Shown here: positions 10,719 through 23,029 of the stretch, piece by piece | Numbering within the stretch: position 1 is the first letter of the stretch | How the letters are laid out: each line of letters opens with the position of its first letter | NCBI GenBank assembly: GCA_938085045.1 | Contig: CALKGI010000005.1 | Coordinates: forward strand, 1-64,000 | DNA from: an uncultured Alteromonadaceae bacterium | GTDB taxonomy: Bacteria; Pseudomonadota; Gammaproteobacteria; Enterobacterales; Alteromonadaceae | DNA: 64,000 nucleotides | Direction: 5' to 3' | Translations under genes and position numbers: made by a program | The notes under the pieces: model-generated | Database searches by the model: none | What the model was told of the DNA's origin: nothing | What the model saw: only the letters and a program-made list of their open reading frames with translations

Positions 10719-11696
10719 CTATAGGTTTGCTAATTGAGTTTTTAGTTTGAGTATAACTGCCAGCTCAAGCCCAGTAATACGTGCGACAAACCTAGGCTCA
10801 GCACCTTCTTTGAGCGCATTGATTGCGATTTCTTCGCGGCCTTTTTCAAGACCTTTTTCTAGACCTTTTTCTAGGCCTTGCTCTTCTCCCCAGGCCCGTA
10901 ATTTCTCTGCTGCTGTCATAAACTCACCTCGTACAGGTTTAGGTAGTCGTCGACCGACTTCAATTAACTGTTCAACATCATCTATATTACCAGTCTCAAT
11001 CACGTAATATAACACCGTTTCAATAAAGTCTAGCGTCAAACGCTGACTCAAGTCCACTGAATTTAAACTGTCTGCCAGCCATTCAAGGTATCGAGAAATA
11101 TCTCTATCTCGAATGTGTTTTAACGCACCTGTCATTATGCCCACTAATTGCTGCTTTTTTAAGTCATCATCTTTTGCGTGATTAACATCAATCAAAGGCA
11201 CTGGCGCTTCGAATATCTGCTCCATAATATTCAATGGATCATCAAAACAATCAGTCAGGTGCAAGGAGTATGGATAAGGTGTTTGCTTGCCGTGATAGAA
11301 GACCAGTGCATAAACAGCTGGCAGCTTGTCTATTCGTTGCTCGTTACTTTGCTCCTTTAACACTTTGTAAAGCATATTAAAAAGATAATGATACACCCGA
11401 AATGCCATCAGTTTATCTGGTGTTGATTGATGTTCGACAAGTAAAATCACTTTTGCATCATTGCTACTGTCTTTATTTTCCTGCTCATGACTATAGGGGC
11501 AGCTAAATACCAGATCACTAAAAGTTTCCTGCAAGGTTTTATCAACATAAGAACTATTTTGCAGTTCAAAACCATTAATCTCGATTGCATTGAGCAAAGG
11601 CTTTGGCAGGTATTGTTGGAAAAACTGTTTTGCGATAACACTATTCTGCATAGAAGAGCGGAAGAACTTGTCATGCGGATTTGTTGGAACGGCCAT
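10719..11696 (-). CDS. Rpn-family (PD-(D/E)XK) recombination-promoting nuclease / YhgA-like protein
   Basis: A 325-residue member of the Rpn/YhgA family once annotated as putative transposases. E. coli RpnA is a DNA endonuclease that promotes RecA-independent recombination. The family opening HDKFFRSSM, the FSDLVF strand with the active-site aspartate and the VILLVEHQS strand with the E-x-Q element are visible. The ATG at 11696 is chosen over upstream starts because it begins directly at the conserved MAVPTNPHDKFF and has AAGG ten bases upstream. Near the C-terminus a 12-bp tandem repeat (10840-10875) encodes repeated Gly-Leu-Glu-Lys, a common and variable feature of this family. It lies alone beside the toxin-antitoxin pair, consistent with an accessory segment. 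Confidence 0.85.
   Translation of the reverse strand: MAVPTNPHDKFFRSSMQNSVIAKQFFQQYLPKPLLNAIEINGFELQNSSYVDKTLQETFSDLVFSCPYSHEQENKDSSNDAKVILLVEHQSTPDKLMAFRVYHYLFNMLYKVLKEQSNEQRIDKLPAVYALVFYHGKQTPYPYSLHLTDCFDDPLNIMEQIFEAPVPLIDVNHAKDDDLKKQQLVGIMTGALKHIRDRDISRYLEWLADSLNSVDLSQRLTLDFIETVLYYVIETGNIDDVEQLIEVGRRLPKPVRGEFMTAAEKLRAWGEEQGLEKGLEKGLEKGREEIAINALKEGAEPRFVARITGLELAVILKLKTQLANL
10840..10875. repeat. 12-bp tandem repeat in the Rpn-family gene
   Basis: Three copies of a CCTTTTTCNAGR unit on the plus strand encode repeated Leu-Glu-Lys-Gly on the minus strand. Copy-number change would stay in frame. Confidence 0.9.
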
Positions 11697-11917
11697 TTGA
11701 GCTGTGCCTTGTAGTGAAGCGTTGATGGCAAAACACCACGTTTTGCTCATTTCATTCAATATAACGGAATATGTTATATATGAGAAGCACCATAACGGGA
11801 CCACGATACAAAATAGTCTAGTGGGTCAACGAAGCACATAACCCTCAAAAACTACCTCCTTAGAGGGGGTTTCCATAACCCATTAACAGTGATACCATCA
11901 CATCAAATACAAACAAG

Positions 11918-11933: not shown

Positions 11934-13841
11934 ATGTTAACGATAAATACACACTCACTTCGCTTACTTGTTATGTTGGCAACCCTACTATTTGGCGCGA
12001 CAGTTCAAGCCAGTACAGCGCCTGCCCAGCTTAGGCAATTAATGCAATTGGCCGAATATATTGGCGCCGATTACGCTGAAGCGGTTACCGCAGGAAAGGT
12101 AGCTGACGCTGGTGAATATCAAGAAATGTTGGAATTTGCTCAGCTGCTTGTGACCAATGCTTTGCCCAACAACCCCACTTTTGGCAATCAAGCCAAGGCA
12201 TTGCTCGGCGCAATAAAAAACAAAGCGACTTTGGCTGAAGTGCAAAGCATGACAAATGCGCTTCGAGGTGAATTACTTGCCCTCGCGCCACAATCTTCGA
12301 TACCCAAAACACTGTTGCCCAAAGCCCAGGTGAGTGCATTATTTCAAACATCTTGCGGCGGATGCCACGGCATGTTGGGTCAGGGTAATGGCGCATTAGC
12401 CGCTTCACTTGAACCTGCCCCCACTGATTTTACCGACCGCCACAGAGCGTTAAACCGTTCGGTATTGGGCTTATTTGATGCCATCAACAACGGTATAGAC
12501 GGCACAGCCATGCCTGCATTTTCAACTATGACAGAACAGCAACGCTGGTCTTTGTCATTTTATGTCGGTAGCCTCGGGTTTGATTCGCTCGCCGTTGCCG
12601 ATAATCACAATGCCGACTTGCAACAAAGAGTCAATTACAGCCCCAACCAATTGTTCGACCTATTGTCTTTGCAACAACCGGGCAAGCTCGACCAACTAAG
12701 AAACTATGTCGAAAACCTTAACGAAGCACAACCCAACCCACTCGCCTTTACCAGCCAACAGTTACATAAAGCGCTAACATTGTATCAGTCAGGCCAATAC
12801 GACAAAGCACAAACACTGTCAGTGAGTGCTTACCTTGATGGATTTGAGCTGGTCGAAAATGCACTGGATGTCAAAGACTCAGATTTGCGAAAATCTATCG
12901 AAACCCAATTAATGGCATTACGCCGATTAGTCAGCAGCAATGCTGATATTAAAGAAATAGAAACCGCGTTTAGCGAAGTTCAAGTGCAATTAGCACAAGC
13001 CCAAAAGCTCATGAGCGGTTCTTCTTTGTCACCCGAAGCGCTGTTCACCGCCAGCTTTGTGATCTTATTACGTGAAGGACTCGAAGCCTTATTGGTAATC
13101 ATTGCGCTAGTCACCGTGTTACGCCGCACCGGTCGCAAAGACGCACTAAAATATGTTCATTTTGGCTGGGTGTCGGCGCTGCTGGCCGGTTTTGCCACTT
13201 GGTTTGCTGCGCAATACTTAATTACAATCAGCGGAGCAAGTCGCGAAGTGATGGAAGGTGCAGCCGCATTGCTCGCGGCCATTGTGTTGTTTTATGTTGG
13301 TTTTTGGATGCACAGTAAAACCCATGCCAACCCATGGCAGCTTTATATACAACAAAATATCAATGCTAACCTCAAGCGCGGCACTTTGTGGGGCATTTGG
13401 GGCTTGGCTTTTATCGCCGTTTACCGCGAAGTGTTCGAAACCGTTTTGTTCTACCAGTCGTTATTAAGCCAAGCAGGCTCTGCCGATATGTCGTCTGTGA
13501 TCAGCGGATTTATTGCCGCGTTGGCAGGGCTTGGATTCATCACTTGGTTTATGACTCGCTACTCGGTCAAACTCCCTATCAAACGCTTTTTTGCACTGAC
13601 CACTTATATTTTACTTGCCCTGTCATTTATTTTGCTCGGCAAAGCCATAGGCGCATTACAAGAAGCAAACCTGCTGAGCCTAACGCCCTTTCCATATGAT
13701 ATTGAAATGTCGTGGATAGGCGTTTATTCGACTTGGCAAAATGTGGTGGCACAAAGTATGGTGTTGGTGTTGTCGGCGGGGCTCTTGCTCGGCGCCAGTG
13801 GGAAAACAGCGACCCGACTGCGAAAAGAGGGCGAAAATTAG
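11934..13841 (+). CDS. Cytochrome c / FTR1-family iron permease fusion
   Basis: A 635-residue protein with a signal peptide (cleavage near VQAS), a periplasmic region with one c-type haem site CGGCH (about residue 140), and a C-terminal FTR1 permease domain. The two iron-binding REXXE motifs of FTR1 are REGLE (about residue 382) and REVFE (about residue 500), set in hydrophobic helices. FTR1 permeases move ferric iron released by coupled ferrous oxidation; here the cytochrome c could receive the electron in place of a multicopper oxidase, which is inference. The gene stands alone. The Fur-type box at its 5' end implies repression when iron is sufficient. No Shine-Dalgarno sequence is seen at 11934, so initiation may be unusual or may use the ATG thirteen codons downstream. 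Confidence 0.88.
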   Translation: MLTINTHSLRLLVMLATLLFGATVQASTAPAQLRQLMQLAEYIGADYAEAVTAGKVADAGEYQEMLEFAQLLVTNALPNNPTFGNQAKALLGAIKNKATLAEVQSMTNALRGELLALAPQSSIPKTLLPKAQVSALFQTSCGGCHGMLGQGNGALAASLEPAPTDFTDRHRALNRSVLGLFDAINNGIDGTAMPAFSTMTEQQRWSLSFYVGSLGFDSLAVADNHNADLQQRVNYSPNQLFDLLSLQQPGKLDQLRNYVENLNEAQPNPLAFTSQQLHKALTLYQSGQYDKAQTLSVSAYLDGFELVENALDVKDSDLRKSIETQLMALRRLVSSNADIKEIETAFSEVQVQLAQAQKLMSGSSLSPEALFTASFVILLREGLEALLVIIALVTVLRRTGRKDALKYVHFGWVSALLAGFATWFAAQYLITISGASREVMEGAAALLAAIVLFYVGFWMHSKTHANPWQLYIQQNINANLKRGTLWGIWGLAFIAVYREVFETVLFYQSLLSQAGSADMSSVISGFIAALAGLGFITWFMTRYSVKLPIKRFFALTTYILLALSFILLGKAIGALQEANLLSLTPFPYDIEMSWIGVYSTWQNVVAQSMVLVLSAGLLLGASGKTATRLRKEGEN

Positions 13842-13983
13842 TTTCAATATCACCAAAAAGCCGAGCATCATCACGCTAACGACAACAAGGGCTATTCTCT
13901 GACTAACTCCTAAGGTATAATTTTCGTCCGTTTAACCGCATATATTGTTTATTTGCTCTAGAAGTTGGTCGTAGGTTTTGACT

Positions 13984-15183
13984 TTGAACATTTATACCAA
14001 AATTTTGTCCGCAGCCTTAGCGCTGATAATGCTGTGTTTCTCGCTACAAAGTGGTGCAGAACAACTCAACTCACAAACCGAATTGCAATTTATTACGGCC
14101 ATAGATGAGATCAGCAATAATCGTATTGATTCGGCCATTGAACAGTTTTCGCAGCTAACCCAACAAGCGCCAAAATTCACGCTCGCCAAACTCATTTATG
14201 CCGACTTGCTAGCATCGCGTTTTGGGCAAGTTTCGACCATGGGCAATAATTCTTTGCTGAATCCGACCAAGTTGATGGCGCTCAAAGAAGAAGCCAAAAG
14301 CAGAGTTAAATATCACCAACAAAAAAGCCGAATTGACCAACTGCCCAAAGACCTAGTGCAAATGACCGACCGACAGCCCTACGCGGTGATGGTTGATATT
14401 TCGCAATCTCGACTTTACCTTTTCGCCAACGACAACGGCATGCCCAAATTAATCAAAGATTATTACGCCTCAAGCGGCAAAGCTGGTGCCGACAAGCAAG
14501 TGTCTGGCGACAACAAAACACCAATTGGGGTCTATTTTGTCACCCAGCGTATTCCCGCATCACGGCTACCATCAAAATATGGCGCCGGTGCATTGCCATT
14601 GAACTACCCTAACTCTTGGGACAGCCAACAGAAAAAAACCGGTAACGGCATTTGGTTGCACGGCTCACCTGTTGAAACCTATAGCCGCCCGCCTCAAGCA
14701 AGTGAAGGCTGTATTTCACTCACCAACTTTGATTTTGCCGAACTCGACAAATTGGTCGACATTAAATCAACGCCAGTGGTCATTGGACGCAATATCGAAT
14801 GGATCTCAAAACAGCAATGGCACGAGCAACAACAACAGTTCAAAAGCCTGATAAGCACATGGGCCACCGACTGGGAAAGCCTCGATAACGATCAGTACAT
14901 GACCAATTACTCTGCCGACTTTAAAAATGGCCGAGACACCTATCACAGCTGGTCAAAACGCAAAGAAAAGGTTAATAAACGCAAATCGTTTATCAAAATT
15001 GAAGTCGCCAACCTAAGCTTATTCACCTACCCAGACGACAAAGGCATGTTGGTCGCCTCGTTCCAACAAAATTATCAAAGCGATAATTACAACGGCAGCC
15101 ACAGTAAACGCCAGTACTGGCGCAAAGAAAATGGCATCTGGAAGGTAGTCTTCGAAGGCAAACCCTCTAAAGGCAGACCATAA
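13984..15183 (+). CDS. YkuD-fold L,D-transpeptidase/carboxypeptidase with C-terminal NTF2-like domain (Csd6/Pgp2-like)
   Basis: An exported 399-residue protein. The order is signal peptide, helical segment, YkuD domain (about residues 120-270), then an NTF2-like domain (about 285-399). Catalytic elements are IWLHGSP with the histidine and SEGCISL with the cysteine; the canonical SHGCIR is altered at two positions, His to Glu and Arg to Ser. The same overall architecture occurs in Helicobacter Csd6 and Campylobacter Pgp2, which act as L,D-carboxypeptidases that trim peptidoglycan peptides. A TTG at 13984 is favoured because AGG lies eight bases upstream; the TTG at 13978 is too close to it. 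The next gene begins directly after the stop, so the two form an operon. Carboxypeptidase rather than transpeptidase activity is inferred. Confidence 0.8.
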   Translation: MNIYTKILSAALALIMLCFSLQSGAEQLNSQTELQFITAIDEISNNRIDSAIEQFSQLTQQAPKFTLAKLIYADLLASRFGQVSTMGNNSLLNPTKLMALKEEAKSRVKYHQQKSRIDQLPKDLVQMTDRQPYAVMVDISQSRLYLFANDNGMPKLIKDYYASSGKAGADKQVSGDNKTPIGVYFVTQRIPASRLPSKYGAGALPLNYPNSWDSQQKKTGNGIWLHGSPVETYSRPPQASEGCISLTNFDFAELDKLVDIKSTPVVIGRNIEWISKQQWHEQQQQFKSLISTWATDWESLDNDQYMTNYSADFKNGRDTYHSWSKRKEKVNKRKSFIKIEVANLSLFTYPDDKGMLVASFQQNYQSDNYNGSHSKRQYWRKENGIWKVVFEGKPSKGRP

Positions 15184-16692
15184 ATGAACCGTTCATCTTT
15201 TTGTGCAGCGACTTTGATATTACTAGTTGTGGTGCTGGCTAGCTTTAGCACCAATGCAGCCCAATCGAAAAGCCAACATGTCGTTCATTTTGAAAATACC
15301 GACCACGAGCTGCACGTTTATGAAATAAAAGGCGAACAACCCGGTAAAACCATGCTGATCATCGGCGGTATGCACAACGAACCCGGCGGTTATGTCACTG
15401 CCGACTTATTTGCCGACACCCGCTTGAAAAAAGGCAATTTAATTGTGGTGCCCCGGGCGAATATGCCGGCTATTGTGAATAACAAGCGCGGTATTAATAA
15501 CGACATGAACCGCACTTTTATCGACAAATCGGCGCAACATCACCAGCATATCTACGAAGATGATATTGTTTCAATTCTCAAATCATTAATCGCCAAATCA
15601 GATGTTTTATTAAATTTGCATGATGGTTACGGTTTTTACCGCCCCGAATGGGAATCAGAACTGGCCAATCCCAAGCGTTGGGGGCAAGCCATTATTACCG
15701 ATCGCAGCCAATTCAAATCAAACAAAAACCAAAAAATGCTGATGCTAGGGCAACGGGCGCAATCGGTCGTCGACAAAGTCAATTTGCTGGTTAAAAACCA
15801 AGACCACCGCTTTCACTACAAAAATACTCGCACCAAAGATCAAGATTCAATACACAAAGAACAGCGCCAATCGGCCACCTTTTATGCCCTGTACGAACAA
15901 GGCATAGAGTCTTACGGAGTTGAAACTTCCAAGAATATCCGCTCGCTAGATTTAAAGGTGACGTACCAAACCATGATAGTTAACGCCTTTTTGGACGAAT
16001 TTGGCATCGTTGTTGAACGTCACAACCTACAACTGGCCAAACCCAAGCTCGATTATTTACTGGTGTCGGTCAACAACGAGCGCCCAGTGGCCTACAAAGA
16101 TGGTGAGGTTATTCTCGTTGAAGCAGGCGACACCCTGCGTATTGACGAAGCATTGACCAATTACGAGCGCGGTGTAATGGTCGATTTAGAGCAAAACAGT
16201 AGCCTTAATGATATAGGTAAAACGTTCAGCGTGACCCAGCCCACAGCTATTAGGGTGTTAAAAGATCAATATTTGGCCGGACGCGTTATCGTACAAACAG
16301 CGGTGCAAGACAACGCCCAAAGCCCATCACAAGGCATGGCTCAAACCAGCGTAAAAACCCCCGTTCAGCTCGATGTCGCCCATTTAGTGGTCGAACTTAA
16401 CGGTCTGGCTAAAACCATCAAACCCGGCGAAACCCTATCAATCAACGATACCGACACCCTAAAACTCATTGGCTACCAAGATAATCAGCACCAACGACGT
16501 CCATCACAAATTAACTTCATTGGCTTTGTCGGCAATCGCCATCTCAACGACGGCGAAGATAGGGGTTACCTGATCACTAAAAATCAGTTGATCAAACGCT
16601 TTTCGGTTGACGGAGCAGGTAAGGTCTATCGCATCAAGGCCGAACAAGGCCAACAGTTACTCGCCCAATTTTACGTTAATACCGATGGCTGA
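15184..16692 (+). CDS. Exported M14/M99-like zinc carboxypeptidase (Csd4/Pgp1-like)
   Basis: A 502-residue exported protein with signal peptide cleavage near NAAQS. The zinc-binding set is visible as GGMHNEPGG (His and Glu of HxxE) and LLNLHDGYGFY (third zinc histidine). A conserved NDMNRTF segment sits between them, and a later SYGVETSK contains the candidate catalytic glutamate. This layout fits the M14 group that includes Csd4 (M99) and Pgp1, D,L-carboxypeptidases that shorten peptidoglycan tripeptides to dipeptides. About 200 residues of beta-rich sequence follow, as in M99 proteins. It abuts the upstream YkuD gene and overlaps the next gene by 8 bp. A succinylglutamate-desuccinylase-type activity is the main alternative, but the periplasmic location and neighbours favour the cell wall. 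Confidence 0.72.
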   Translation: MNRSSFCAATLILLVVVLASFSTNAAQSKSQHVVHFENTDHELHVYEIKGEQPGKTMLIIGGMHNEPGGYVTADLFADTRLKKGNLIVVPRANMPAIVNNKRGINNDMNRTFIDKSAQHHQHIYEDDIVSILKSLIAKSDVLLNLHDGYGFYRPEWESELANPKRWGQAIITDRSQFKSNKNQKMLMLGQRAQSVVDKVNLLVKNQDHRFHYKNTRTKDQDSIHKEQRQSATFYALYEQGIESYGVETSKNIRSLDLKVTYQTMIVNAFLDEFGIVVERHNLQLAKPKLDYLLVSVNNERPVAYKDGEVILVEAGDTLRIDEALTNYERGVMVDLEQNSSLNDIGKTFSVTQPTAIRVLKDQYLAGRVIVQTAVQDNAQSPSQGMAQTSVKTPVQLDVAHLVVELNGLAKTIKPGETLSINDTDTLKLIGYQDNQHQRRPSQINFIGFVGNRHLNDGEDRGYLITKNQLIKRFSVDGAGKVYRIKAEQGQQLLAQFYVNTDG

Positions 16693-18217
16693 TCTTAATT
16701 ATTGGGCTGGCGACCCTTTTGATACGCAGCTTAATCAACTCAAAAGTGCGCTGTCGACAAACGAAGCGTTAATCACCCTAACAGGCGAGGCCGGGGTGGG
16801 CAAAAGTGCGCTATGCCACGAATTTCAGGCCATTGCGCAAGCCAATGGTGATTTTGTCATTTATTTGGCCGATCCGCCTTCGACAATCAAAGATTTACAA
16901 CAAGCATTTAAATCTCGGCAACCTCAACTCGACCAATATTCTTTTATGACGGCGCTAGAACGATGGTTGGTAGAGCTGTCTCAGCAAGGCCATAAAGCAG
17001 TTTTAGTCATCGACAATGCCCATCTGCTCAATGTTGAAGTCAGCACCGCCGTTCGGCTCATCAGTAATTTGCAAACGCAAACCTGCCAACTCATTCAGGT
17101 GTTACTGTGCGCACAACCGCAAATGTTCAAAGTGATGGGCCAACCGCAATATGGTGGGCTTTTGCAACGGGTCAGCCATCGCCTTGAATTATTACCACTC
17201 ACCAAAGCCCAATTGCACCAATTGGTAAACGATTGTTATTCAGTGCATTTGGCACCTGCCGCACTGTCGTTGATGTACAAGCTAAGCCAAGGCAAACCCG
17301 GTATTGCGGTTAGCATGGCGCAAATGCTAGGGCAACAAAGCAGTGCAAACCAGAGCGGCACAGGTGAACTAAGTAAAAGCCAGTTTGGCCGAGCCATTGC
17401 CGACAACGTTCAATTTCGCCGCCTGTTGAATCGTCACCGATTATCACAGTCAATTTTGCCCATAGGTATTTTGGCCGCAGCAACTATTGGCTTGTATTTG
17501 TATGTCTATTCCGAACCTCTAAATGCTGAACCGACAGTACTCACTGACAAAGTACACACCGCAAAAGTAGACACTGCAAAAGTACTCACCGCAAAAGCAA
17601 ACGCTGAAAAAGTGGCAATTAACGCGCCCATTCAAGTGCCTGTACAAACACAAATTCACACACCAGAGCAGCAAAAACCTATAACCTTGCAAACAACCGA
17701 AGAACACACAGCATTAATAACCACCCCTGCTCAAGAAGAGGCTTTAGAGCCTGAAATTGAGGCAGAAGTTACAGAAAAGATAAAGCCACAACAAATAGTG
17801 AAAGCCCAAGAAGAACCTCAAGAAGAGCAATTAACAACTCCCCCGCCGCCAACCAAGGCACAAATAGAGCAGGCCGTCATGCAGGCCATAACGCAGTGGA
17901 CAACCGCATGGCAAGCGCAAGATGTTGATGGTTTTTTCTCAGCTTACGCCACACAATTTACCCCAGATGACAAAACAAGCCATAAACAATGGCGTAAACA
18001 ACGGATGATACGTATTATTCGGCCACTTTGGATCACCCTCAATGTTGATGACATTCAAATTATGAACACCAGTGACCAGCGCATATTCAGCCAATTTTGG
18101 TTGTCATACGCCTCACCTAATTACCAAGACAAAACACTCAAACAGTTAGAATGGACTCAGCACGATGGGCGTTGGGTCATTGCAACAGAACAAAATATTA
18201 GATTATTAAGGCCCTGA
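16685..18217 (+). CDS. ExeA/DamX-like membrane ATPase with C-terminal NTF2-like domain
   Basis: A 510-residue protein. An ExeA-type AAA+ domain occupies about residues 1-240, with Walker A GEAGVGKS at 34-41 and Walker B VLVIDNAH near residue 118. A single hydrophobic helix (about 259-276, PIGILAAATIGLYLY) is followed by a low-complexity Thr/Glu/Pro-rich linker and an NTF2-like domain over the last 115 residues. The predicted topology is a cytoplasmic ATPase with a periplasmic NTF2-like domain. ExeA and DamX normally carry SPOR or other wall-binding domains at this end. The start at 16685 overlaps the preceding carboxypeptidase stop (ATGGCTGA), implying coupling. A role in powering or placing the wall enzymes is inferred from context. 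Confidence 0.75.
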   Translation: MADLNYWAGDPFDTQLNQLKSALSTNEALITLTGEAGVGKSALCHEFQAIAQANGDFVIYLADPPSTIKDLQQAFKSRQPQLDQYSFMTALERWLVELSQQGHKAVLVIDNAHLLNVEVSTAVRLISNLQTQTCQLIQVLLCAQPQMFKVMGQPQYGGLLQRVSHRLELLPLTKAQLHQLVNDCYSVHLAPAALSLMYKLSQGKPGIAVSMAQMLGQQSSANQSGTGELSKSQFGRAIADNVQFRRLLNRHRLSQSILPIGILAAATIGLYLYVYSEPLNAEPTVLTDKVHTAKVDTAKVLTAKANAEKVAINAPIQVPVQTQIHTPEQQKPITLQTTEEHTALITTPAQEEALEPEIEAEVTEKIKPQQIVKAQEEPQEEQLTTPPPPTKAQIEQAVMQAITQWTTAWQAQDVDGFFSAYATQFTPDDKTSHKQWRKQRMIRIIRPLWITLNVDDIQIMNTSDQRIFSQFWLSYASPNYQDKTLKQLEWTQHDGRWVIATEQNIRLLRP

Positions 18218-18319
18218 CAAAACTCAGATTTTGGGTAAACTGACAATCTATAGCCATGGTAAATATGCCACCAGTTTGCTAGTATCTGAGCACTTAACAA
18301 GGTAAAAATAACCCGGCCA

Positions 18320-18970
18320 ATGCAAATCAAATCACTCTGTTTAATCATCACTGTTTTGGTGCCCTGCCTCGCAATGGCACAAACCACCGCTATAGAAGAC
18401 AAACCTTTGCCACCGAAGTTTTTTAAGTCAGGCCAAATCAAATCGGGCGCTGATAAGCTCATCGACTGTGAAGATGCACAAAGTATTCATTGCTTGAGTA
18501 TTGGCGATATCACCATCGGCGGTGATTTTGACAAGTTAAAAGAACAACTAGGCAGCCCATGGCACTCACTGCCCAGAAAAGACCGCAGCATTGATGCCGT
18601 ATATCCATTAAGAATTTACCAGTACAGTACGGCCTATTGGGTGATTAGCCACAAAGACAACCGCATCATAGCTGTACAGCTGACCGGCAATCGTTCGCCG
18701 CAGGCGCTATTGTTTTCGGGATTACAGTTAGGCGACAAATATGACAAGGTCATTGAAACGCTCGGACATCCCAAAGCTCGCCGCCAATATGGCAAAAACG
18801 AGGCTTATTTATGGGATTACAGTCCATTGCCCTTTTCGCTTGAAATTCACAACAACCGTCTTTATTCAGTTCGAATACATATGCCCGACAGCAAAATTCC
18901 TAACAGGCAGGTGAGTAAAAAAATGGCCGATTTACTGACTGGACGGGTAAAACCTACAGTCAAAGATTAA
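18320..18970 (+). CDS. Small exported protein with two BamE/SmpA-like repeats
   Basis: A 216-residue protein with a clear signal peptide (cleavage after AMA). No family was firmly recognised. Two internally similar units are visible: DFDKLKEQLGSP followed by YWVISHKDNRIIAVQL, and KYDKVIETLGHP followed by LWDYSPLPFSLEIHNNRLYSVRI. The helix-LGxP-strands pattern is that of the BamE/SmpA fold, in which such domains sit in the outer-membrane or periplasmic space. There is no lipobox cysteine. It lies 102 bp after the ATPase gene and could belong to the same operon. It converges with the next gene, whose stop overlaps this one by 4 bp. The function is unknown. Confidence 0.6.
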   Translation: MQIKSLCLIITVLVPCLAMAQTTAIEDKPLPPKFFKSGQIKSGADKLIDCEDAQSIHCLSIGDITIGGDFDKLKEQLGSPWHSLPRKDRSIDAVYPLRIYQYSTAYWVISHKDNRIIAVQLTGNRSPQALLFSGLQLGDKYDKVIETLGHPKARRQYGKNEAYLWDYSPLPFSLEIHNNRLYSVRIHMPDSKIPNRQVSKKMADLLTGRVKPTVKD

Positions 18971-19956
18971 AGCGTCACTTCTTGAATGATCAACCACTTA
19001 CCTTGCTCTTTGCGCAAGCTAAGCTTTTTCACCACAGTATCTTTAAACGTATCAGAACGATAATGCTGTTCAAATATCGCCGTTGCTGATTTTGGTGATA
19101 ATTGCTTGACCGTGATACCAATGACATCGATTTCGATAAACTTAGGCCTTTGGATGCGCTTACCTCGGTAGGCTTCCCATCGTTTGCGCGACATTTTGCT
19201 CGGTGGGATGAAGTTTTGATGATAAAAACTGAAATAATCTTTAACGCTGCGCTGTGACCAAGCCTGAGACCACGCCTGAACCATACCTGTAATTTGTTCG
19301 TTGATATCCACAGCTTTCGTTTGAGTAACCACTGTTGGCTTAGTCGTTGATTGGCCAGTGCTTGGTGTTGCAACATCAGAAGCATTAGCAGTGCTGTTAT
19401 CATTAAGAATACCGACAGCATCTGGGGCTTGCGTAACAGACGCACCATACAATGTTTTACTCAGCAATGCATACTGGCCAGTTTTTTGTTTGGTTTTTTT
19501 ATCAATGTCGAGCGCTTCACGATAAGCTGACGAAGCCATTTGATTGTACAGTTCACGCAGGTTTTTATACGCCGTGGCGTAACTGTCGCTAGTTGAAAAC
19601 ACCTGTTGTAGGGTTTCGATAGCAAGGGCCGTTTGACCTTTGTCGGCGTATAAAACCGCAAGGTTATTATAGGCCTCGGGCATCGCGGGATATTGATTAA
19701 TCAATTGCTTGAAGATACTGGCCGCTTCAGTGGTATTACCCATCAACTTGCTAACATTGCCCTTTAACAGCAAGGCTTGAGCGTCATTGGCGTTATTGGC
19801 CAACAAAGTCGATATTTGTGATAAAGCCTGCTTATAACGACCATTTTCTTGATCGGCAATAATAGCGCTGTAAGGGTCATTAGCAGACACAGAAGACGTG
19901 GCGACCATACTGCAAGTAACAATGAGGGTCGCGATGCCGACTCTTAATTTTTTCAT
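18967..19956 (-). CDS. Exported TPR protein with C-terminal NTF2-like domain
   Basis: A 329-residue exported protein (signal peptide ending near SVSA). Four TPR-like units occupy about residues 30-150, including AQALLLKGNVSKLMGNTTEA and AYNNLAVLYADKGQTALAIE. A Ser/Thr-rich linker follows, then an NTF2-like domain (about 215-329) marked by WSQAWSQRSVKDYFSFYH, KFIEIDVIGI and GKWLIIQE. That domain aligns by eye with the ends of the YkuD protein and the ATPase encoded nearby. It is transcribed toward them, convergent with the BamE-like gene. A scaffold or partner role in the same envelope process is inferred. Its TPRs resemble those of wall-assembly adaptors, but no partner can be named. Confidence 0.72.
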   Translation of the reverse strand: MKKLRVGIATLIVTCSMVATSSVSANDPYSAIIADQENGRYKQALSQISTLLANNANDAQALLLKGNVSKLMGNTTEAASIFKQLINQYPAMPEAYNNLAVLYADKGQTALAIETLQQVFSTSDSYATAYKNLRELYNQMASSAYREALDIDKKTKQKTGQYALLSKTLYGASVTQAPDAVGILNDNSTANASDVATPSTGQSTTKPTVVTQTKAVDINEQITGMVQAWSQAWSQRSVKDYFSFYHQNFIPPSKMSRKRWEAYRGKRIQRPKFIEIDVIGITVKQLSPKSATAIFEQHYRSDTFKDTVVKKLSLRKEQGKWLIIQEVTL

Positions 19957-20041: not shown

Positions 20042-23029
20042 TTATCTTGCAATGTTAAGATTGAGCATCGAGGAAGCGCCGCCAAGAATGGCAATTTCGG
20101 TCACTGTCATCGGCCAGCCAGCAAATAAAATGGCACTGACAAATCCGGCTTGCGTTTCATTGTTGTTATCAGTGAATAAATGAAAAGCACTCTGCAACGC
20201 CCAACGTTTATCAGTTTGTGTGCCACTACCGACCAATTGACCGTCAATAAACATTTTGTACTGCCCTGCCAATTCGGGCGCTGCATACATAACCATGGCA
20301 ATTCGATGCCAACTATTGGGTGCCAACGCGCCAAAATAGCCCTTACCCAAGCCAATTCCACCCGAAGGTTGATTTTCGGTGAACCACTCGCCTTCATCCG
20401 AATTGTCGAGCGTGGTTTGCAACATTGACCGCCATTGACCATCACTTGCGACAGGCCAAAGAATATCCATGACAAGGGTGTAATCAGACACCAGATTTTC
20501 ACTTTCAAAGTCACCATTAGCAGGTACATTGTGCGTAACAGTGTAGCCCTGTTCAGTCGTGGTTTTAGAAAACCCCATGACATGGGTAGGTCCATCAGGT
20601 AAGTCGGGCAAACCTAACTCCGTGGTCATGCCAAAAACGGTATTTTGTTCACCCCAGCCCGTTTGACCCGGATCACGATAACTCAACGCACCCGGTCCTT
20701 TGTCTGTTTTAAACGGGTTAGCGCTATCAGAAAAAGTCCAAACGCTGCGCATTTGCTCACGTTGACACGATTGCAACGCGGTTTCTGAATCAAAATATTT
20801 ACAGTCACTGGTTCTGTTGCGACCATATTGTTCTAGCGCCCAATACGATTCAGAACCAAAAGCCACCGCTTTGTAATCGACCCCTTCGCCAAATTTAATC
20901 AAAGGATTAAGCGCCGCAGCTTTGTGTAATAACACTTTATAATCTTGTGTATTGTTCGGCGCTACCGGACCTTGATAAGACCACAATGGTTGCAGCTGTT
21001 TCATTTTAATTAATGTATCGCCGCTGACATCTGCTACATACATGGCATTAGTACCCGGTGTATCTGAAAGCTGCCTTTCAATCCTATAAGCGTTGTTTAA
21101 TTGCTGCGCCGAAACATCGCCAACGCTCCATTGTCCCGGTGTCCATACAACCTCAGGGTCTAACAAGGCCGCATCAGCCTGATGGGCATACATACCGGCA
21201 AGCCCAGCGATGAGTGGCACTTGTTCGCGGGTAATCGTGTTTTCGACCACTGCAATAGGCGTGTCGGCATTCGGTGCGTATTGGGCAAGAATGTTGTTAA
21301 TAGCAGTGTCGACTTCACTATCGATGGCAGTCAATTCACTAACAAGTTGTTCTTTATATGTGTGTCCTGCAATACTCGCAGTTTGCAAATTGTATTGAAT
21401 ATCTAATTGCGTGACGCCATCAGCGCTAAAATCTGGTTGAATGACTATGGTATTGTTTGAATCAGTGCCAATACTGGCGCCCCCATGCGTATGTCCGCCC
21501 AATACAACATCAATACCATCAACATCTTCGGCAATCTCATTGTCGGCACCAATGCCCAAGTGGCTGAGCATCACCATCACATCGACATTGTGGCGGTGTT
21601 TTTGCACCATCAATTGCGCAATGTCATCCAAATCCCAATCCATTTTGAACGATGGCAAAAAATCGCCCTCGTATTGCTCATCGAATTCATTCCATGGTTC
21701 GGTGACCATGCCAAACATGCCCACCCGAACACATCCGAGCTGAAATTCGGTGTAGGCAACCGCACCAAAACCTTCGACTGCGTTACCGATATATTCAGTG
21801 TTACTCAACAACACTTTGCCATGTGGGTCTTGGGCGAATGACAATAACTGCGACTCACCCCAAGCGAAATCATGATTACCTATAACTCTGGCATCGAATT
21901 GCATTGCATGGATTGCCGCCATGGTGGCCACCCCGCCAGATAACGGCTCTGCAATCGAACCTTTTTCGTAATCATCACCGCCATCGGTAAACAAAGTATA
22001 GGGGTTGGCAGCTAGCACTGAATGATGATAAGCCTTGATTTTCGCAAAGCGATTATCGCGATGATAGTTAGCGTGCAAATCGGCGACATGAACAAAAGAA
22101 ATGGTTTGTTCGCTCAACAACGGGTCACACACCGGACCTATTGCCGTTATTGTTACGGGTTGATCAATGTCTGTTAAAACTAAAGCCCAAGTTTCTAATT
22201 CATCAACACTGACTGACACAATGTCGCCATTGGTGACTGACTGATACAAAATTTCCCATTCATCGTCGTCGAATTTGGCTAGCATTGCGCGTTGACCCTC
22301 AGGCACTGGCTGCTCTATACGCAAACTCACTGTCGCTGGGGCTAAAAGGTCAATATCTGGCGAAAAACGATAGGCCGAAGAAATCACAATGGCATCATCA
22401 CCGTCATCGTCTGATGCTACGGGCGCCTCAACCACCTCAACAGTCATACGAGTATCTTGCGCCAGTGCATTGGCAGGTATTGTTAACGCCGCATTGCCAG
22501 ATTGTGTTTGCACTACCCCGCCCTGCTCGGCAACAATTAAGCTGCCTTGTGCAAAAACAATGGCATATTGTGAAAAATGATTGAGCTGGGCCCAAACCGA
22601 GGTGTCATTGGCAACAGATTGAGGCAATAACTGCCAACTATCGCCTTCTAGCAAGCCAATAAAAGCCAACTGACCGGCAGGCACGGCGGTATGAAGCGTA
22701 AGAGTAAGGGTTACTGGCGACAGAAAATCGACATTACTAGGACCAATATCATAAACCTGAGAACCCAGATTTTGCTGATTTGGCTGGCCAGAAATGGGTT
22801 GTACGGTAAGTGTTACCCTGGTGTCGGCTGGCAATGCATTGGCAGGAATGTTAAGAACAGCAGCACCTGACGCCGATTGCACCTCGCCCCCTTGGCTTGC
22901 CACAATCACCTGACCTATCTCAATTCCACCATTGCCGCTGTCTTCGGGCGGTGCAACGTCAACACCGCCGCCGCAGGCGACTAACAGGTGAAGAGCCAAT
23001 AAATTAAAAACGAACCGCAGCCATTTCAT
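20042..23029 (-). CDS. Lipoprotein metallophosphatase (5'-nucleotidase family) with tandem ZU5-like domains
   Basis: A 995-residue predicted lipoprotein with a lipobox (LLVAC). Two tandem ZU5-like beta domains of about 120 residues each follow, both containing GG(E/V)VQ and IPANAL. The central region is a calcineurin-type phosphoesterase with ADLHANY, DGGDDY, GNHDFAWG, LSHLGIG and GGHTHGG, giving the usual two-metal ligand set. A 5'-nucleotidase C-terminal domain and a terminal concanavalin-like beta domain (SDYTLVMDILWP onward) follow. UshA-type enzymes hydrolyse extracellular nucleotides for uptake. The ZU5-like N-terminus is unusual for that family. It lies 44 bp downstream of the DUF4442 gene on the same strand, possibly cotranscribed. 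Substrate is not determined. Confidence 0.8.
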   Translation of the reverse strand: MKWLRFVFNLLALHLLVACGGGVDVAPPEDSGNGGIEIGQVIVASQGGEVQSASGAAVLNIPANALPADTRVTLTVQPISGQPNQQNLGSQVYDIGPSNVDFLSPVTLTLTLHTAVPAGQLAFIGLLEGDSWQLLPQSVANDTSVWAQLNHFSQYAIVFAQGSLIVAEQGGVVQTQSGNAALTIPANALAQDTRMTVEVVEAPVASDDDGDDAIVISSAYRFSPDIDLLAPATVSLRIEQPVPEGQRAMLAKFDDDEWEILYQSVTNGDIVSVSVDELETWALVLTDIDQPVTITAIGPVCDPLLSEQTISFVHVADLHANYHRDNRFAKIKAYHHSVLAANPYTLFTDGGDDYEKGSIAEPLSGGVATMAAIHAMQFDARVIGNHDFAWGESQLLSFAQDPHGKVLLSNTEYIGNAVEGFGAVAYTEFQLGCVRVGMFGMVTEPWNEFDEQYEGDFLPSFKMDWDLDDIAQLMVQKHRHNVDVMVMLSHLGIGADNEIAEDVDGIDVVLGGHTHGGASIGTDSNNTIVIQPDFSADGVTQLDIQYNLQTASIAGHTYKEQLVSELTAIDSEVDTAINNILAQYAPNADTPIAVVENTITREQVPLIAGLAGMYAHQADAALLDPEVVWTPGQWSVGDVSAQQLNNAYRIERQLSDTPGTNAMYVADVSGDTLIKMKQLQPLWSYQGPVAPNNTQDYKVLLHKAAALNPLIKFGEGVDYKAVAFGSESYWALEQYGRNRTSDCKYFDSETALQSCQREQMRSVWTFSDSANPFKTDKGPGALSYRDPGQTGWGEQNTVFGMTTELGLPDLPDGPTHVMGFSKTTTEQGYTVTHNVPANGDFESENLVSDYTLVMDILWPVASDGQWRSMLQTTLDNSDEGEWFTENQPSGGIGLGKGYFGALAPNSWHRIAMVMYAAPELAGQYKMFIDGQLVGSGTQTDKRWALQSAFHLFTDNNNETQAGFVSAILFAGWPMTVTEIAILGGASSMLNLNIAR

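Follow-up and report, generated by a model that had tools for sequence, protein, structure and literature searches.

Three envelope proteins with a common Cds6_C tail suggest a peptidoglycan-trimming module in an uncultured Alteromonadaceae bacterium

A cluster of five genes in an uncultured Alteromonadaceae bacterium (assembly GCA_938085045.1) encodes a YkuD protein, a membrane ATPase and a TPR protein that end in the same NTF2-like domain, Pfam PF24125 (Cds6_C), together with an M99 peptidase and a further secreted protein. The cluster lies in positions 1 to 64,000 of contig 5 (CALKGI010000005.1) of this 81%-complete genome, a stretch of 64,000 nucleotides referred to here as the window, and within the range named by a first-pass annotation made from the sequence alone. 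The homology of the three tails, the fold of one of them, a conserved pocket, the active-site residues of the YkuD protein and the linkage of the genes were observed. These observations suggest that the cluster encodes a module that trims peptidoglycan stem peptides with the help of wall-docked partners, a reading to which we assign a probability of about 0.55; judged from the genes, the chances are even that its members would work as one concerted module.

The last ~110 residues of the YkuD, ATPase and TPR proteins match PF24125 with E values of 8.7e-25 (87.6 bits), 8.8e-14 (52.2 bits) and 1.5e-15 (57.9 bits), respectively, all above the cut-off of 27 bits. Pairwise local scores were 115 for YkuD-ATPase, 108 for YkuD-TPR and 167 for ATPase-TPR; shuffled controls had means of 30-32 and maxima of 52-64, and the real score was reached in 0/1000 shuffles for each pair, so that chance likeness was rejected. 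The motifs by which the first-pass annotation had aligned the tails were confirmed: 18 tails of many architectures share W-x3-W, Y, F-x3-Y, K, W and E without exception. Sequence comparison thus identifies the three tails as one NTF2-like domain, as had been proposed. A search of the source genome revealed no PF24125 match beyond these three.

An AlphaFold2 model of the ATPase tail, computed from six sequences of the window and of a sister metagenome-assembled genome (MAG; locus L008), reached a predicted local distance difference test score (pLDDT) of 90 and a predicted template modelling score (pTM) of 0.81. Its top two Foldseek matches in the PDB are chains of Bd1075 (7o21, TMq 0.82, 1.9 Å), with Pgp2 at ranks 18 and 25. 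Because these best matches are NTF2-tailed chains, the possibility that the tails have unrelated folds fails for the ATPase tail, to which the model assigns an NTF2 fold; for the YkuD and TPR tails this fold is predicted from sequence.

In Pgp2 of Campylobacter jejuni the NTF2 pocket, which was studied with fragments bearing stem peptides, binds peptidoglycan, the residues being Y233, F242, K257, K307 and E324; Pgp2 substituted at these positions did not restore helical shape, and the K307A variant associated weakly with sacculi in a pull-down (PMC8038945). The NTF2 domain of Bd1075 targets the enzyme and is required for curvature (PMC8938487). The first four Pgp2 residues were mapped by PDB alignment onto 102 domains in 99 open reading frames. 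In the column of K307, 91 domains have K, six have R, one has H and four have a gap; that of K257 holds R in 49 and K in 41, that of Y233 Y in 78 and F in 10, and that of F242 F in 81 and Y in 13. The three tails of the window (Table 1) differ by conservative swaps, Y to F in the ATPase and K to R in the ATPase and the TPR protein. Since the conserved feature is the pocket that binds peptidoglycan in Pgp2, docking to the wall accounts for the tails better than recruitment of one tail by another, which the first-pass annotation implied by partners "recruited through one shared domain". On this evidence the tails are likely to bind the wall.

The YkuD domain of the first protein is recognized by Pfam at E = 8.9e-20. 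Over both domains the best PDB relative is Bd1075 (7o21, E = 4.3e-41), followed by Csd6 and Pgp2 (4xzz, 6xj6, 6xj7). The D-Ala-pocket residues Tyr133 and Trp158 and the catalytic His and Cys (Csd6 numbering) are kept in 46/46 YkuD domains tested, that of the window included. The protein is thereby very probably an LD-carboxypeptidase.

The YkuD, M99 and ATPase genes run head to tail, with 0 bases between the first two and an overlap of 8 bp between the M99 and ATPase genes. The peptidase matches Pfam M99 (E = 3.5e-36, 125.5 bits) and M99_C (E = 3.8e-6, 27.5 bits), each above a cut-off of 27 bits, and its PDB matches are the Csd4 structures 4wcm, 4wck and 4q6m (E <= 3.7e-31). It keeps the LHDG (LHDGxGxYRP) and E-x-S-K motifs as in Csd4/Pgp1; a search for a Cds6_C/NTF2 tail on it found none. 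The proposed pairing of a Csd6-like and a Csd4-like protein in one operon holds. In C. jejuni, LD-trimming by Pgp2 is followed by DL-trimming by Pgp1 (PMC8038945).

The ATPase has an AAA_22 domain (E = 9.5e-16), also matches TIGR03015 (E = 1.6e-23, under that family's cut-off) and shares 33% identity, across 166 residues, with a paralogue of 305 residues from the source genome. By sequence the AAA domain groups with ExeA-like and XrtA-associated ATPases; GspA and MshM are presumably relatives too, and DamX presumably an analogue. Its Walker A motif (GEAGVGKS) is intact and one transmembrane (TM) segment lies near residues 256-274. Past the TM segment, ATPases of the ExeA/GspA type typically have a domain of the PG_binding or GspB type. 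Pfam detected neither in the corresponding part of the window protein, where it gives Cds6_C alone, and the protein is therefore not classed as GspA/ExeA.

The TPR protein (TPR_19, E = 1.9e-10) is encoded convergently with the secreted fourth protein, their 3' ends overlapping by 4 bp. The counterpart of the fourth protein in the sister MAG (L008:3834-5159) has 442 residues and a C-terminal Cds6_C domain (E = 1.9e-9). The window gene stops after residue 216, exactly at the end of the TPR gene on the opposite strand, and has no tail, which may reflect a true deletion or an assembly fault. An AlphaFold2 model of the product was poor (pLDDT 45), and a likeness to BamE-type domains is a guess. In a tree of 98 tails (114 columns, 38 open forks of 95, bootstrap not settled), the ATPase tail and the tail of the L008 fourth protein are sisters (support 100/93) and nest in a set made up mostly of TPR tails (96/88). 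It is thus probable that both tails arose from the TPR type inside this lineage. In contrast, YkuD tails from other families of the class surround that of the window YkuD protein (99/90). Its YkuD part may have been acquired from outside the order, loss elsewhere being possible as well.

The domain is much wider spread than this gene set. PF24125 occurs in 60/369 sampled genomes of the class and in 127/398 of the phylum, a large share of the latter from one family (f225), and in 0/14 control genomes. Of 394 sampled genomes of the order two are positive, namely that of the window and another that has a TPR/YkuD pair (L099); among 59 relatives there are also two, both of this genus. A conserved alteromonad system was therefore rejected as a candidate. 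Arrangements were compared, by six-frame translation, in 61 loci (60 fetched stretches and L008) that were chosen for high scores or diversity rather than at random. A YkuD frame is present in 46 of them, with the tail on 43 YkuD proteins, and in 38 of these 46 loci a second NTF2 protein is encoded on the same strand at most 400 bases away, in 34 cases with a TPR match. Thus, of the expectation that the genes co-occur in other genomes, the pairing of YkuD and TPR members is borne out, and the full set is local to the genus: with two positive genomes in the order and the ATPase fusion seen in this genus only, the neighbourhood check did not bear out a wider alteromonad system. The ATPase appears, by its sequence distribution, to be a local addition.

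An M14 carboxypeptidase lies beside the YkuD gene in 11/46 loci and an M99 gene in 3/46, and an M14-family trimming enzyme may take the place of M99; M14 identity was checked with PF00246 on one protein (L078). Two arrangements may be recorded here. The M14 gene, for a protein mostly of ~300 residues, runs convergently towards the end of the NTF2/YkuD pair in L045:7387-10390 and in L041, L043, L047, L048, L051, L052, L060, L075 and L078. In L064:6675-9412 and L065:6692-9390 the YkuD protein has two NTF2 domains in tandem and an M99 gene comes immediately after it, which makes another arrangement of the pair.

A mechanism can be proposed from these parts. The YkuD protein, as a Csd6/Pgp2/Bd1075-type LD-carboxypeptidase, would convert tetra- to tripeptides, and the M99 protein, as a Csd4/Pgp1-type DL-carboxypeptidase with a changed metal site, tri- to dipeptides. 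Hydropathy indicates N-terminal hydrophobic stretches in the YkuD, M99, fourth and TPR proteins and one internal TM segment in the ATPase; with the usual topology, the three tails would be periplasmic. The TPR protein, the membrane ATPase and the fourth secreted protein of the sister genome would be non-catalytic envelope partners with the same NTF2 domain, whose pocket would dock them on the same peptidoglycan so that the enzymes act at chosen sites. The ATPase would tie the inner membrane to the trimming sites.

Several observations weigh against this reading. The metal motif of the M99 protein, which we take to be the zinc motif with zinc-binding residues among its letters, is H-N-E(PGG) in both the window and L008 (779-2314), one residue short, whereas Q-G-D-E is present in 12/12 of the remaining M99 proteins from the class, and Q-G-D-EPGG (4wck, 4q6m) or H-G-D-EPGG (4wcm) in the Csd4 chains. 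Q/H-G-D-E before PGG is thus absent from the window protein, although its membership of the family by sequence stands. Activity is uncertain because of the shortened motif, and the enzyme may be altered or inactive, an active DL-carboxypeptidase being only slightly the likelier. Of the Csd4/Pgp1-like carboxypeptidase in the first-pass annotation, the family and the shared operon with YkuD are retained and the word carboxypeptidase has become less sure. In favour of the reading, M99 exceeds the cut-off in 13/369 genomes of the class, ten of which also have PF24125 (Fisher p = 1.3e-6, ignoring kinship, and counting one genome, G093, whose NTF2 match is under the cut-off); against it, M99 stands beside YkuD-NTF2 in only 3 of these 13.

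The Walker B motif ends in DNAH in the window and L008, without the usual glutamate, and as DEAQ in 7/7 paralogues examined; since the catalytic acid is missing, the ATPase is expected to bind ATP with weak or unusual hydrolysis. Its fusion to Cds6_C was seen in two genomes only, both of this genus (window and L008). AAA and NTF2 in one frame were found only in L008 among the 61 loci, and not among the matches listed for 80 of ~185 NTF2-positive genomes, so that a widespread fusion was rejected. A plasmid search with the YkuD protein gave no match, one with the ATPase gave 18 records in which, among the 15 matches listed, the AAA part alone aligned, and a search of the Escherichia coli genome gave no match. 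The TPR gene lies on the opposite strand, so the five genes do not form one operon, and no tail was detected by hidden Markov model (HMM) on the YkuD protein in three loci (L059, L069, L075). As to the pocket, the 102 domains were picked by an HMM seeded on these very tails, which favours conserved columns, and the closing E, found in 94% of them and taken as E324, was assigned by position only, the PDB alignment stopping short of it. Enzymes, too, are built on the NTF2 fold, and it takes part in oligomerization; the Foldseek rows listed include ketosteroid isomerase and the CaMKII hub. Finally, peptidoglycan binding by the tails, joint action and any effect on shape are inferences from the genes.

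One rival explanation is that the tails act as adaptors between proteins: the NTF2 domains would bind each other or one hub, and wall binding would be secondary. NTF2 folds often oligomerize, as the CaMKII hub recalls, TPR repeats usually bind proteins, and the ATPase tail is nearer to the TPR tail (score 167) than to the YkuD tail (115). However, the Pgp2 pocket residues are conserved even in a solo NTF2 protein whose 15 kb stretch contains no other tailed frame (L067), and Csd6 dimerizes mainly through its N-terminal domain. A Pgp2 construct was approximately monomeric by light scattering, yet it was made without the helices presumed to form the dimer, and higher oligomers are expected by the authors of that study (PMC8038945). 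An adaptor role is therefore unlikely, and so, to a similar degree, is a cluster in which the YkuD protein, perhaps with M99, trims alone while the roles of the ATPase and TPR proteins lie elsewhere, such as in ExeA-like assembly of a machine through the wall, with the tail as a generic wall anchor. Such a division of labour agrees with the presence of Cds6_C on SurA-, BamE-, TpsB- and SPOR-containing proteins, where sharing proves no common pathway, and with ExeA, which binds peptidoglycan and is needed for secretin assembly (PMC4098917). It agrees less well with the YkuD, M99 and ATPase genes, which in both genomes share a strand and have touching or overlapping ends, or with the TPR protein as the usual neighbour of YkuD elsewhere (34/46 loci), and no secretin or pilus gene was found among the 8 proteins scanned from the stretch, genes further off being unscanned.

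The altered motifs could instead mean that the module is decaying or repurposed in this genus, leaving mainly binding proteins. The M99 and Walker B forms that depart from those of all relatives compared (12/12 and 7/7) and the fourth-protein tail missing at 18970 in the window would fit. Against decay, all frames are open, the YkuD active site is intact and M99 keeps LHDG and E-x-S-K; moreover, the M99 and Walker B forms are identical in the window and L008 though the ATPases are 68-76% identical, which indicates selection rather than decay and makes this explanation improbable. Least probable is another activity of the YkuD protein, either as an LD-transpeptidase or as an amidase of the DpaA kind, which would release proteins from peptidoglycan. 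The NCBIfam model LdtF_DpaA_YafK matches it weakly (22.9 bits against a cut-off of 365), and DpaA and LD-carboxypeptidases share one MEROPS group. However, the position of Trp158 in LD-carboxypeptidases is taken by Met in DpaA, a family member with amidase activity, and Bd1075, the best PDB match over both domains, is an LD-carboxypeptidase (PMC10653827). The Trp is kept in the window and in all 46 domains tested, and the DpaA-like identity was rejected on this residue.

Beyond this cluster, Cds6_C is found on at least 8 kinds of envelope protein. Carriers confirmed by Pfam include a SurA-type isomerase (L091), BamE (L071), a ShlB/TpsB transporter (L049), a SPOR protein (L097), a Sel1 protein (L110), a zinc-ribbon-like TM protein (L061, N-terminus judged by eye) and the two-tailed YkuD protein (L065). 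SurA-type isomerases with a C-terminal Cds6_C were seen in L091:7108-8829, L092:6111-7895, L093:139-1905, L108:6883-8583 and L109:7143-8828, with Pfam run on L091 only; an LptD-like neighbour in L108 and L109 has a weak NTF2-like insert, for which Pfam gives DUF4440 under the cut-off in L109 and not Cds6_C. The BamE lipoprotein with a Cds6_C tail (L071:6242-7366) is from a genome of ~1.1 Mb.

Tentatively, Cds6_C may be a general SPOR-like wall-docking module that marks zones of peptide trimming, a possibility to which we lean less than to the trimming module itself. A conserved pair of TPR-NTF2 and YkuD-NTF2, partly with M14 or M99, would form its core, the domain would have been appended to SurA, BamE and TpsB proteins, and in this genus the ExeA-type ATPase with its altered Walker B would have become an ATP-binding inner-membrane anchor coupling the cytoplasmic ATP state to the trimming site. 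The breadth of the domain in class and phylum and across kinds of protein makes wall placement a general question open to test, namely whether a single small pocket domain directs many envelope proteins to their sites on the wall. New here are the promiscuity of Cds6_C, the altered Walker B motif of the ATPase and the fourth tailed protein of the sister genome. A literature search, in text excerpts and with most subscription papers and preprints outside its coverage, found no YkuD/TPR/ATPase NTF2 cluster.

Coordinates are collected in Table 1. The YkuD start is set at 13978, the 13984 of the first-pass annotation being the second TTG, and the ATPase start at the ATG at 16685 by choice, its frame being open from a TTG at 16607. 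Near the cluster lie an Rpn-family nuclease/transposase-like gene (10719-11804; PF04754, E = 2.3e-46), an upstream gene (11934-13841) for an FTR1 iron permease that includes a cytochrome c domain, and a gene for a large protein with ZU5 and calcineurin-like phosphoesterase domains (20042-23029), SoxB-like by NCBIfam under the cut-off.

Table 1. Genes and domains of the cluster, in window coordinates; pocket letters are the equivalents of Pgp2 Y233/F242/K257/K307
Feature	Position	Strand	Composition	Evidence
YkuD protein	13978..15183	+	Signal-peptide-like N-terminus, YkuD domain, C-terminal Cds6_C/NTF2	Pfam, PDB relatives, hydropathy
YkuD domain, predicted LD-carboxypeptidase type	14380-14784	+	Inside YkuD protein	
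Cds6_C NTF2-like tail 1, YkuD type	14842..15156	+	Pocket Y/F/K/K, final E	
Peptidase M99, Csd4-like	15184..16692	+	Signal-peptide-like N-terminus; starts right after YkuD stop codon	Pfam M99, M99_C
ExeA-like AAA_22 ATPase	16685..18217	+	AAA domain, one TM segment, linker, Cds6_C tail	
Cds6_C NTF2-like tail 2, TPR type	17876..18193	+	Pocket F/F/R/K, final E	Pfam, pocket mapping, AlphaFold2 + Foldseek, tree
Secreted protein, no family above cut-off	18320..18970	+		PF14504 E 0.019, under cut-off
TPR protein	18967..19956	-	Signal-peptide-like N-terminus, TPR repeats, Cds6_C tail	
Cds6_C NTF2-like tail 3, TPR type	18979..19293	-	Pocket Y/F/R/K, final E	Pfam, pocket mapping, tree

Csd6 of Helicobacter pylori, Pgp2 of C. 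jejuni and Bd1075 of Bdellovibrio are YkuD LD-carboxypeptidases with an NTF2 tail, and the window YkuD protein resembles them in domain order, catalytic His/Cys, D-Ala-pocket Tyr/Trp and NTF2 pocket residues. Unlike them, it is accompanied by two further proteins with the same tail and an adjacent Csd4-like gene, a set known here from sequence. The M99 protein shares with Csd4/Pgp1 the M99 and M99_C domains, LHDGxGxYRP and E-x-S-K, but its H-N-EPGG is one residue shorter. The ATPase is like ExeA/GspA, MshM and XrtA-associated ATPases in having AAA_22, a single TM segment and a C-terminal part beyond it, and differs in ending in Cds6_C and in having DNAH instead of the DEAQ found in the seven paralogues. 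As a small domain placed on several unrelated envelope proteins, Cds6_C recalls SPOR, and the L097 protein carries both; SPOR, however, is another family and recognizes denuded glycan (PMC6895207), whereas the Pgp2 NTF2 pocket was studied with fragments bearing stem peptides.

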